A stretch of DNA of 64,000 nucleotides from Pseudomonadota bacterium. Its GTDB lineage: Bacteria > Desulfobacterota > Desulfovibrionia > Desulfovibrionales > Desulfovibrionaceae. The stretch is from positions 1 through 64,000 of the forward strand of contig JAHJLB010000014.1 in assembly GCA_018822105.1 (NCBI GenBank). The letters run 5' to 3'. Under the pieces are notes generated by a model. The model worked only from the letters and a program-made list of their open reading frames with translations, was not told the DNA's origin and ran no database searches. Every line of letters starts with the position of its first letter. Position 1 is the first letter of the stretch. A program made the position numbers and the translations under genes. Below, piece by piece: positions 18,270-21,773 of this stretch.

Positions 18270-18345
18270 GGGTCACTAGCTCAATTGGTAGAGCAGCGGA
18301 CTCTTAATCCGGAGGTTCAAGGTTCGATTCCTTGGTGACCCACCA
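18270..18345 (+). tRNA. tRNA-Lys (anticodon CUU)
   Basis: A 76-nt cloverleaf with acceptor stem GGGTCAC/GTGACCC, encoded CCA and anticodon CTT at 18303-18305. The top pair of the anticodon stem appears to be G-G, a small oddity. A terminator follows at 18361. Confidence 0.95.
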
Positions 18346-18360
18346 CGTTAGACCCGAAGA

Positions 18361-18388
18361 GCCGTTTCCGCAAGGAAGCGGCTTTTTT
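18361..18388 (+). terminator. Rho-independent terminator after tRNA-Lys
   Basis: A 9-bp stem (18361-18369 with 18374-18382, one G-T pair) with a GCAA tetraloop is followed by six T. Confidence 0.9.
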
Positions 18389-18544
18389 CTTGGCCTCGGA
18401 TCTGACCTGGCTTGCGCCGCGGCCGGCGCCCGTGTTGTCCTGTCCCTGCGCTGCTGTGCATTCCATCATCGCGGAGTTGTGCGCAATTCATCCAGGGCTG
18501 TCAAGAAATGTGCGCTATGCCGGGCTTTGGCCACAGCTTTGGGC

Positions 18545-18573
18545 TTGGCAGAATCCCTGGCGCAGGGTAGATT
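18545..18573 (+). promoter_or_regulatory. Promoter of the DUF47-pit operon
   Basis: TTGGCA (18545-18550) and TAGATT (18568-18573) are separated by 17 nt, about 77 nt before the start codon. No convincing tandem Pho box was seen. Confidence 0.55.
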
Positions 18574-18649
18574 CAGGAAACGGATTAGCGCACTGCGCGA
18601 ATTGAGCCGCAGGGCCGGAATATCGCTTCAGTTGCCAAAAGGAGAGCCC

Positions 18650-19279
18650 ATGGGCTTCAGCTTTTTCCCCAAGGAAATCCAGTTTTTCGACCTGTTCGCT
18701 GCGCAGTACGCCAAGCTTTCCGAGGCCGTGACCGTGCTGAACAGCATCTTCCAGGAATTCTCGGACTGCGAGAACAAGTGCAAGTCCATCAACATCCTTG
18801 AGGAGGAGGGCAACGGCGTGGCGCGCAACATCGCCAAGCAGCTCTCCCTGACCTTCATCACGCCCATTGACCGCGAGGACATCCACGACATCAATATCGC
18901 CCAGGAAGACCTCCTGAACCTCGTCAAGGCCATCTCCACGCGCATCGGCCTGTATGACTTCACGGTGATGAAGTTCCCTTCCAAGAGGCTGGTGAAGAAC
19001 CTCGCGCTCATGGTGGAGGAGGTCGGCCGCATGCTCGACCGCCTGCGCGAGCGCAAGCCGGTTGAGGCCAACTCCAAGAAGGTCAAGTCCCTCAAGTACG
19101 AATGCGAGATGATTTTGCTGGTGGCCCTGGGCGAGGTTTACGACCTCAAGGTCCAGGGGTTTGAGACGGTGATGGAGATCATCAAATGGACGCACATCTA
19201 TGACCGCATCGAGCAGGCCGTGAATCAGGCGGAGCGCCTTGCGGACATCATCGAAGGCGTGGTGCTGAAAAATGCCTGA
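18650..19279 (+). CDS. DUF47 family PhoU-like protein, partner of PiT transporter
   Basis: The 209-residue helical protein belongs to the DUF47 (PF01865) family, related to PhoU. FPKEIQFFDLF near the start, the conserved ITPIDREDIHDI stretch (about residues 75-86) and a final helical bundle are visible. These proteins are almost always paired with a PiT phosphate transporter and are thought to control it. The ATG at 18650 has AGGAGA just upstream. Its last 8 nt overlap the start of pit, which argues for translational coupling. Confidence 0.93.
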   Translation: MGFSFFPKEIQFFDLFAAQYAKLSEAVTVLNSIFQEFSDCENKCKSINILEEEGNGVARNIAKQLSLTFITPIDREDIHDINIAQEDLLNLVKAISTRIGLYDFTVMKFPSKRLVKNLALMVEEVGRMLDRLRERKPVEANSKKVKSLKYECEMILLVALGEVYDLKVQGFETVMEIIKWTHIYDRIEQAVNQAERLADIIEGVVLKNA

Positions 19280-20282
19280 TGTCCCCCTGCTGCTTGTGGC
19301 CATCGTGGCCGTGGCCCTGTTCTTCGACTACACCAACGGGGCCCACGACAGCGCCAACGCCATAGCCACCATCGTCTCCACAAAGGTGCTTTCGCCCAAG
19401 GTCGCCGTGGTCATGGCCGCAGTGCTCAACTTCGCGGGCGCGTTCATGGGCGACCAGGTGGCCAAGACCATCAGCAGCGGCATCGTCAACGCCGACATGG
19501 TTTCGGGCAGCCAGGCCCTTGTGCTGGCCGCGCTCTGCGGGGCCATATTCTGGAACCTGTTGACCTGGTACCTGGGCCTGCCCTCGTCCTCGTCCCATGC
19601 CCTCATTGGCGGACTCATGGGCGCCGCCGTGAGCTACAGCGGCTTCGACGCCTTGAACTACCTGTCCATCCTGAAAAAGGTCGTGCTGCCCCTGGTGCTT
19701 TCGCCCATGGCCGGCTTCTTCGGCGGGTATCTGATCATGATCCTGCTCACCTGGTCCGTCCGGAAGTACAAGCCGCGCAAGGTCAACAGCCTGTTCCGCA
19801 AGCTGCAGATCGTGTCCTCGGCCTTCATGGCCACCAGCCACGGCCAGAACGACGCCCAGAAGACCATGGGCATCATCACCCTGGCCCTGTTTATCTTCCA
19901 TGTGATTCCCGGAACCGAGATACCCCTCTGGGTGAAAATCTGCTGCGCCTTGGCCATGGGCCTGGGCACGGCCACGGGCGGCTGGAAGATCGTCAAGACC
20001 ATGGGCCACAAGATCTTCAAGCTGGAACCCATCCACGGTTGCGCCGCCGAGACCGCCGCGGCCATTGTCATCACCGGGGCCAGCCACTTCGGCGCGCCCA
20101 TCAGCACCACGCATGTCATCTCCACCTCCGTGCTTGGCGTCGGCTCCAGCAAGCGGTTTTCCGCAGTGCGCTGGGGCGTGGCCGGGAGCATGGTCGTGGC
20201 CTGGGTCATCACCATCCCCGCCTCGGCCCTGGTGGCGTCGCTGTCCTTCTATGTGCTCAAGTTTGTCGGCGTGATCCATTAG
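19272..20282 (+). CDS. pit: Inorganic phosphate transporter, PiT family
   Basis: The 336-residue membrane protein shows the duplicated PiT signature: TNGAHDSANAIATIVST in the N-terminal half and FGAPISTTHVISTSVLGVG in the C-terminal half. ATSHGQNDAQKTMGII holds the second GxND-type motif. It imports phosphate with a cation. It is co-transcribed with its DUF47 partner by an 8-nt overlap. No terminator with a T run follows. Confidence 0.94.
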   Translation: MPDVPLLLVAIVAVALFFDYTNGAHDSANAIATIVSTKVLSPKVAVVMAAVLNFAGAFMGDQVAKTISSGIVNADMVSGSQALVLAALCGAIFWNLLTWYLGLPSSSSHALIGGLMGAAVSYSGFDALNYLSILKKVVLPLVLSPMAGFFGGYLIMILLTWSVRKYKPRKVNSLFRKLQIVSSAFMATSHGQNDAQKTMGIITLALFIFHVIPGTEIPLWVKICCALAMGLGTATGGWKIVKTMGHKIFKLEPIHGCAAETAAAIVITGASHFGAPISTTHVISTSVLGVGSSKRFSAVRWGVAGSMVVAWVITIPASALVASLSFYVLKFVGVIH

Positions 20283-20379: not shown

Positions 20380-20411
20380 TCGATCCACGTGCATTGAGCG
20401 GAGTGGAGCGT

Positions 20412-21167
20412 ATGGATACCAGCCATTTTGACAATTTGCGACCAGGCATAGAGGAACAGCTGCGCGAGCGTTTCCGCCAGGCTGCGGAGAGTCCGCGCGG
20501 ACTCTTTTCCTATCCCACGGGGCAGGAGGGGCTGCGGGGCTTGGGCTATTGCGCGCAGGACCTCGTCGCCCTGCCGGATTTCGTCCAGGAGTGTTATTGC
20601 GGCGTGGGCAACCCCTTCGCCGCAGGGGCTCCTGAGCCTGGCTCCCGGGTCCTCGACGTGGGCTGCGGCGCCGGCATCGATGCCCTTGTGGCGGCTGGCC
20701 GTGTCGGTCCTACGGGGAGGGTTGCGGGGCTTGAGTTCTCTTTTGAGATGTGCGCGCGCGCCCAGGCCAATGCCGCTGCCGCGGGCGCGGCCAACGTCTC
20801 CTTCCAGCAGGGCGGAGCCGAGCGTCTGCCTTTTGCCGACGGCAGCTTTGACCTGCTCCTGTCCAATGGCGTCTACAACCTCGTGCCTCGAAAACGGCAG
20901 GCCCTGGCCGAGGCCTTGCGTGTGCTGAAGCCCGGCGGCCGCCTCCAGGTGGCGGACCAGATCCTGGAAGGCGACATCCCGCTTGCTGCGCACCAGGTCG
21001 AGCCAGGGGCCTGGGCCAGGTGACGTGACGGCGCTGTTCCGGGAAAGGTTTTCCTGGAGATGCTCGATTCCGCAGGTTTTTCCGAGACCCGCCTGCTGCA
21101 TCGCACGGGCTACAAGAGTTCGCCCGAAACCGTCGGCGCCGTGTTTTTTGCGCGCAAAGCCGGCTAA
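20412..21167 (+). CDS. ArsM-like SAM methyltransferase with in-frame UGA, probable selenoprotein
   Basis: Read through a TGA at 21021-21023, this gene encodes 251 residues. Residues 1-75 match the ArsM N-terminal region (CYCGVGNPFA), 79-90 are the SAM-binding VLDVGCGAGIDA, and SNGVYNLVP at 151-159 matches the SNCVINLVP motif of human AS3MT. The UGA is codon 204, in GAWAR-U-RDGAV. From it to the conserved GF is 20 residues, exactly as from the arsenic-binding Cys of AS3MT (GECLGGAL). The same frame continues 47 sense codons to TAA. A SECIS-like hairpin follows the UGA. I infer selenocysteine insertion; a nonsense mutation is the alternative, giving a 203-residue fragment without the C-terminal part. 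The ATG at 20412 has GGAG upstream. The substrate may be a metalloid, but this is not shown. Confidence 0.8.
21021..21057 (+). other. UGA codon plus candidate bacterial SECIS element
   Basis: After UGA (21021-21023) the sequence folds into an 8-bp stem, CCGGGAAA (21039-21046) with TTTCCTGG (21050-21057), capped by GGU (21047-21049). The first loop G is 24 nt past the UGA. Bacterial SECIS elements recognised by SelB need an apical loop beginning with G, usually GGU, about 16-37 nt from UGA; E. coli fdhF has its GGU at about +19. Folding was done by hand. Confidence 0.65.
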
Positions 21168-21226: not shown

Positions 21227-21311
21227 GCAATGATTGGCAAGAGGCATGGCGTGCATAATTGGCAAAGCGCCTTGGCGGAAGTTTGCCAGGGTATGCCGGA
21301 GGAGGTGGCCC

Positions 21312-21773
21312 ATGACCAGGGACAAAGGCGCAGCGTCTGTTGAACCGGCGCAAGGCGCTGGGCGGGACAATCCCGCAGCAGGGCCTCGGGTGACTGGAGT
21401 CCTTGGGGCTGAACCCTCGAGCATGGATGCGCAGCCTACCTTCAACAAGGCCTTTGGAGAGATCGTCCTCAAGGTGGAGGATGGCTCGGGCCGTATCTCA
21501 CTTCCCAAGCAAATGGACCTGAGCGCCTTGACCGGCCTGCGCGAGGCCTTGCTCGCGGCCATGGCGAGCTGCGCGAGCATCGTGCTTGACTGGGGCGCGG
21601 TGGAGCGCTGCGACCTGTTCTTTTTCCAGATGCTGTGTCTTGCCCAGCTTTCCTGCCAGGCCAGGGGCATCGCCTTCAGCGTTGATGGGGCCCTGGACGC
21701 GGACCTGCGCACGGCGGCCACGGCCATGGGCTTTGGTTGCGGCATCCCGGAATGCCTGTTCCGCGCGGCCTGA
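21312..21773 (+). CDS. STAS-domain protein (anti-sigma antagonist-like)
   Basis: This 153-residue protein has a low-complexity N-terminal third (residues 1-45) and a STAS domain from about residue 50: ISLPKQMDLSALTGLREALLAAM, then SIVLDWGAVERCDLFFFQMLCLAQ. The position of the phosphorylatable Ser in SpoIIAA-type proteins (D-[ST]-[SA]-G) reads ERCDLFF, so it does not keep the classic motif. The chemotaxis-associated STAS group often looks like this. The ATG at 21312 has GGAGGAGGTGG just upstream. It stands alone after the selenoprotein candidate. Partner unknown. Confidence 0.72.
   Translation: MTRDKGAASVEPAQGAGRDNPAAGPRVTGVLGAEPSSMDAQPTFNKAFGEIVLKVEDGSGRISLPKQMDLSALTGLREALLAAMASCASIVLDWGAVERCDLFFFQMLCLAQLSCQARGIAFSVDGALDADLRTAATAMGFGCGIPECLFRAA

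Follow-up and report, generated by a model that had tools for sequence, protein, structure and literature searches.

The window (the whole stretch of 64,000 nucleotides analysed here) carries a gene for an ArsM-like methyltransferase whose in-frame UGA at codon 204 is predicted to encode selenocysteine (Sec); we put the probability of this reading at about 0.96. As the initial annotation had described, a lone TGA at codon 204 is followed by 47 sense codons: translation ran from the ATG at 20412 through 203 sense codons to the TGA, and on through the remaining codons to a TAA. The positions of the gene and its parts are collected in Table 1. Pfam placed methyltransferase domains, PF13847 and PF08241 among them, at about residues 70–190. 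The best NCBIfam models were NF041537 (287.9 bits, cut-off 510), NF041536 (271, cut-off 575) and NF047649 (253.5, cut-off 460), followed by NF008823 (176.1, cut-off 263), so that all four scored below cut-off. Judged from its sequence, the product is very probably both a selenoprotein and a SAM-dependent methyltransferase. An AlphaFold2 model of the protein alone was set aside (mean pLDDT 33.6).

Table 1 Features of the methyltransferase gene (positions in the window)
Feature	Position	Strand	Remarks
ArsM-like methyltransferase, full frame	20412..21167	+	251 residues including Sec204; TAA at 21165-21167
Candidate ribosome-binding site GGAG	20400..20403	+	likely; assigned by position only
Cys63 codon, CGVGNP motif	20598..20600	+	candidate second ligand; Cys in 40/46 SNG-type rows
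Val65, column of the first As-ligand Cys (GCG) of ArsM	20604..20606	+	alignments
Gly153 (SNG), column of the second As-ligand Cys (SNC)	20868..20870	+	alignments
UGA, predicted Sec204, column of the third As-ligand Cys	21021..21023	+	translation, homologues, structure-profile alignment
bSECIS-type hairpin	21037..21059	+	10-bp stem; GGU apical loop from the 24th base after UGA

By counting residues, the initial annotation had assigned the UGA to the column of an arsenic-ligand Cys, and a profile built from the window protein and 18 close homologues led to the same column when it was aligned to solved structures. Residue 204 aligned with the Cys of the GECLGGA motif in 4fr0, 4kw7 and 8xt7, which we take to be CmArsM and human AS3MT; the match spanned just the first 195–254 residues of these chains. 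The Cys of the GCG, SNC and GEC columns are presumably the three As(III) ligands of ArsM, GEC being the third. These arsenic methyltransferases are nevertheless distant from the window protein, in which Val and Gly occupy the two columns where they have their other Cys. The subfamily to which the window protein belongs departs from ArsM at exactly these two ligand columns, a point missed by the initial annotation; the alignments gave GVG in place of GCG and SNG in place of SNC.

TGA was found at column 204 in all 19 sequences when the window gene was compared with its 18 nearest homologues, which together come from 19 different genomes. For a wider sample, 395 genomes of the phylum were searched, of which 161 had a match at E ≤ 1e-40, and 148 non-duplicate rows from among the matches listed were combined with 30 loci that include the window gene. 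The examination of homologues for Cys or Sec at this column, proposed in the initial annotation, showed U (predicted Sec) in 62 of these 178 sequences, the window gene included, and Cys in 115; one had a gap there. The alignment covered 171 of the 178, and the remaining seven, which had not passed the motif filter among 120 fetched stretches, were read by eye and were all SNC with Cys. The homologues run past the codon instead of all ending before it, and where a match listed contained a stop, it was one TGA; neither TAA nor TAG occurred. Outside the phylum, 60 plasmid records had a match and four were opened. In Ilyobacter polytropus (Fusobacteriota), plasmid pILYOP01 carries a relative (L222:3986-4720) with UGA in frame at column 204 and SNS in place of SNG; the Haladaptatus and Chelatococcus plasmids have SNG with Cys at column 204, and the Natrinema plasmid encodes an ordinary ArsM with SNC and Cys. 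The Ilyobacter gene adjoins IS3-type transposase genes. Phage records searched for the methyltransferase gave no match.

A SECIS hairpin with G in its apical loop lies just past the UGA of the window gene. At the DNA level, we compared 45 Sec loci with 13 Cys loci, asking for a loop of 3–5 bases that starts at base 20–27 counted from the U of UGA. Perfectly paired stems of 6 bp or more were found in 44 of the 45 Sec loci (L038 being the Sec locus without one) against one of the 13 Cys loci, where the stems measured 8 bp in one locus and 5 bp in five and were missing in seven. When G was also demanded within the first two bases of the loop, 35 Sec loci and none of the Cys loci had a stem that surpassed 2000 synonymous recodings at p ≤ 0.05 (window p = 0.0015); ten Sec loci, L038 among them, failed at this level. 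Covariation was measured in 30 distinct sequences in the window's register, in which 90.3% of cells pair and five of ten pairs have changed on both sides. None of 500 shuffles, which ignore relatedness, reached the observed score, and slid registers scored worse than that of the window. One of the five covariation measures, that of further pair types, was no better than the shuffles (240/500). Dinucleotide shuffling of the window hairpin alone gave a modest z of −1.78, with 12 of 200 shuffles as good. Codon choice was recorded as well: among 28 SNG-type loci with Gly at U+7, 27 use the codon GGA, which makes up 70 of the 616 Gly codons upstream in those genes.

Purifying selection acts on the codons past the UGA. 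Over codons +14 to +46, comparison of the window gene with its five best-scoring relatives gave dN of 0.15–0.23 and dS of 1.02–1.82, and five more distant pairs gave dN of 0.24–0.64 with dS of at least 1.45 or saturated. Low dN relative to dS indicates that the stretch is coding.

The source genome (3.17 Mb, 63 contigs, 99.98% complete) contains the complete machinery for Sec, for which the initial annotation had advised a search: selB (373.7 bits), tRNA-Sec (81.9), selA (581.5) and selD (323.7) all exceeded their cut-offs. Both the selB and the tRNA-Sec family also match below cut-off in all 14 control genomes, and for this reason only matches above cut-off were counted. ARAGORN likewise reported a tRNA-SeC with anticodon tca. 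The same program took another tRNA-Sec match, which at 49 bits lay just above the gathering score of 47, for a tRNA-Trp. Among the 19 genomes with the UGA gene, selA was detected in 15, the four without it being all at most 85% complete, and in 12 of the 12 that are at least 90% complete, although the selA match of G001 contains a TAG. Within the genus, the UGA gene was present in 10 of 15 genomes. The gene for selenophosphate synthetase SelD in the source genome (contig 10, L018:1459 onward) has an in-frame TGA of its own, in the motif AAGUAAKV, and is itself predicted to encode a selenoprotein. The source genome also has dsrA (597.4 bits), which fits a sulfate or sulfite reducer.

These lines of evidence, namely the conserved UGA, the hairpin, selection and the sel genes, strongly support the proposal of the initial annotation that Sec replaces the ligand Cys, and they bear on three other explanations of the codon. 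If the UGA were an ordinary stop, the product would be a methyltransferase of 203 residues and the remainder an untranslated remnant. The Pfam methyltransferase match, which ends near residue 190, would suit this explanation, as would the RefSeq record of the Ilyobacter relative, which ends at the UGA. However, the frame and purifying selection go on past the codon, the hairpin is in place behind it, and the only stop in the matches listed is that single TGA; we regard an ordinary stop as highly improbable. Reading of the UGA as Trp, or unspecific read-through without SelB, is in keeping with some residue being clearly encoded there, but the rows without U have Cys or the one gap and never Trp, and the Sec machinery and hairpin are present; this, too, is highly improbable. 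Both explanations were rejected. A sequencing error or a recent pseudogene, in which a Cys (TGC) or Trp (TGG) codon became TGA, has in its favour that TGC and TGA differ by one base, and nothing else. This explanation is already refuted by the homologues, since 19 genomes and a Fusobacteriota plasmid share TGA at column 204, and its probability is close to nil.

Within the sampled phylum, the SNG motif and Sec go together. All 46 rows with Gly at column 153 have U at column 204, and the 132 rows with Cys at column 153 have Cys (115), U (16) or a gap (1) there. The link does not hold everywhere, because the Haladaptatus and Chelatococcus plasmids combine SNG with Cys; these Cys forms are natural counterparts of the Sec form. 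In a quick tree of 100 sequences (the 46 SNG-U rows, the 16 SNC-U rows and 38 sampled others), the SNG rows made up one side of a branch with SH-aLRT support of 99, and the SNC-U rows one side of a separate branch with support of 83, and at least two changes between Sec and Cys are required on this tree. Cys63, which sits two residues before the first arsenic-ligand column, is retained in 40 of the 46 SNG-type rows. L035 has Val there, L040 gave no data, and L073, L075, L076 and L077, which belong to another branch, have Ala or Val.

Several other related genes were encountered during the survey. A second Sec-ArsM group (L042, L043, L050 and 13 more loci) keeps the GCG and SNC Cys and has UGA at the third column alone. 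The ArsM-like protein of L199 has the usual Cys at the column, and its gene has an in-frame TGA near the N-terminus (ESCUPSK), possibly another Sec site. Two separate matches to the Sec methyltransferase, each in two pieces, occur on contigs 35 and 65 of G051 (L100 and L099, respectively), and the contig 65 copy, with its pieces in different frames, may be frameshifted. A scan of the genome contigs gave one distant methyltransferase.

Three families of double selenoproteins modelled in NCBIfam, NF041537 (ArsM/AhpD), NF041536 (ArsM/DUF2284) and NF047649 (methyltransferase/UXPK-star), share with the window protein the methyltransferase domain with GVGNP, SNG and UxxG. Three members of the clade exceed the fusion cut-offs (L057, 600.5 of 510; L054, 586.1 of 575; L068, 500.4 of 460) and lie inside the SNG branch of the tree. 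The window protein differs from them in having no second Sec domain or tail, its frame being closed by the TAA at 21165, and in scoring below the cut-offs. With ArsM (NF008823/PRK11873, including the Sec form) it has in common the SAM-methyltransferase domain and the third arsenic-ligand position. It differs in its score of 176.1 bits against 263, in having Val65 and Gly153 in place of two ligand Cys, and in Cys63, placed two residues before the first of these. PMC2398784 (2008) reported Sec in an arsenite methyltransferase in 8 marine sequences, Table 1 of PMC13188914 contains Sec-ArsM (UxxG) and the article cites Fomenko 2007, and the same source credits the double-selenoprotein fusions to Haft and Tolstoy 2025. 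The description "new selenoprotein" in the initial annotation was therefore too strong, given these two reports and the three fusions in NCBIfam; such enzymes have been described before, so the window gene is a solid new example and not a new phenomenon. For the stand-alone GVGNP/SNG form, we recognised no description among the papers listed by a literature search whose coverage did not extend to Haft and Tolstoy 2025, which makes this weak evidence of novelty. What the window gene adds is that the predicted Sec-bearing ArsM-like domain also occurs alone, beyond the double-selenoprotein fusions, and that the remaining two arsenic ligands have been lost across its clade. The gene offers a small, testable enzyme with which to explore the contribution of selenium to metalloid methylation. 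The Ilyobacter relative, stored in RefSeq as a protein of 191 residues that ends at the UGA and looks truncated (WP_013388987.1), illustrates that genes of this type can be concealed by annotation.

In the mechanism that we propose, SelB and Sec-tRNA(Sec) would decode UGA204, aided by the hairpin at 21037–21059, and yield the 251-residue enzyme. The product would be a stand-alone, single-Sec, SAM-dependent methyltransferase with the GVGNP and SNG motifs, in which the selenolate of Sec204, probably together with Cys63, would hold a soft, thiophilic substrate beside the methyl group of SAM, and redox partners would then restore the selenolate. The likeliest substrate would be trivalent arsenic, already methylated arsenic or a similar metalloid, and we give a metalloid substrate held by Sec204, perhaps with Cys63, about an even chance. 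Since Cys63 is kept in most SNG rows, a putative Cys63/Sec204 pair is an attractive idea. The initial annotation had called the column arsenic-binding: its placing of Sec at a ligand column stood, but arsenic binding itself can only be inferred, because two of the three ligand Cys are absent (Val65 and Gly153). For the same reason, and because there is no ars gene among the neighbours examined, arsenic should be read as a presumed substrate. Nor is the Sec enzyme the sole candidate arsenic methylase, because a separate ArsM-like protein with all three Cys is encoded on contig 25 of the source genome (L173).

The same three observations, replacement of the GCG and SNC Cys, neighbours without ars genes and a separate three-Cys ArsM, would also suit a Sec enzyme that methylates something other than a metalloid, such as a selenol, a thiol, hydrogen selenide or sulfide, or another organic acceptor. 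Against this stand arsenite methyltransferases with fewer Cys. PMC8649762 describes arsenite methylation with one Cys by TtArsM of Thermus, and a two-Cys ArsM has been reported, according to its title in reference lists. Fewer Cys therefore do not exclude arsenic, and the three-Cys criterion for ArsM is less than absolute. TtArsM is a precedent for single-thiol arsenic methylation; unlike the window protein, it is described there as a Cys enzyme, and as distant from other arsenite methyltransferases. The fusions that carry the same domain also argue against a non-metalloid substrate, as the DUF2284, AhpD or UXPK partners in the same clade suggest metal or redox chemistry. We consider a non-metalloid substrate possible, with the odds somewhat against it. 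Concerning the subfamily as a whole, we tentatively suggest that GVGNP/SNG enzymes may have given up the trithiolate arsenite site and may use a Cys63/Sec204 pair, or Sec204 alone, for a different soft substrate, which could be methylated arsenic, selenium, tellurium, mercury or a selenol. If true, this would be a selenium-dependent methyltransferase with a chemistry of its own, which occurs both by itself and as the catalytic part of fusion selenoproteins.

No operon partner emerges from the gene context. Genes for a DUF47 protein and a PiT phosphate transporter lie directly upstream (window 18332–20282). PiT was upstream in all nine genus loci, where its match ends 138–218 bases before the methyltransferase match, and DUF47 in eight of the nine, the contig of the ninth ending too early. 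Neither gene was matched in the compared loci from outside the genus, where the neighbours are different ones; for nine neighbours in five out-of-genus loci, the Pfam matches were limited to FdhD, DUF1638 and an SNF2 helicase. No ars genes were found among the neighbours examined. Downstream in the window is a STAS gene (21234–21773), which in five genus relatives was matched about 3.7–3.9 kb past the start of the methyltransferase gene. In one of these five, L086, genes for SpoIIE-type, HATPase/STAS and Hpt/STAS proteins lie within that interval, and the window locus may have lost genes between the methyltransferase and STAS genes.
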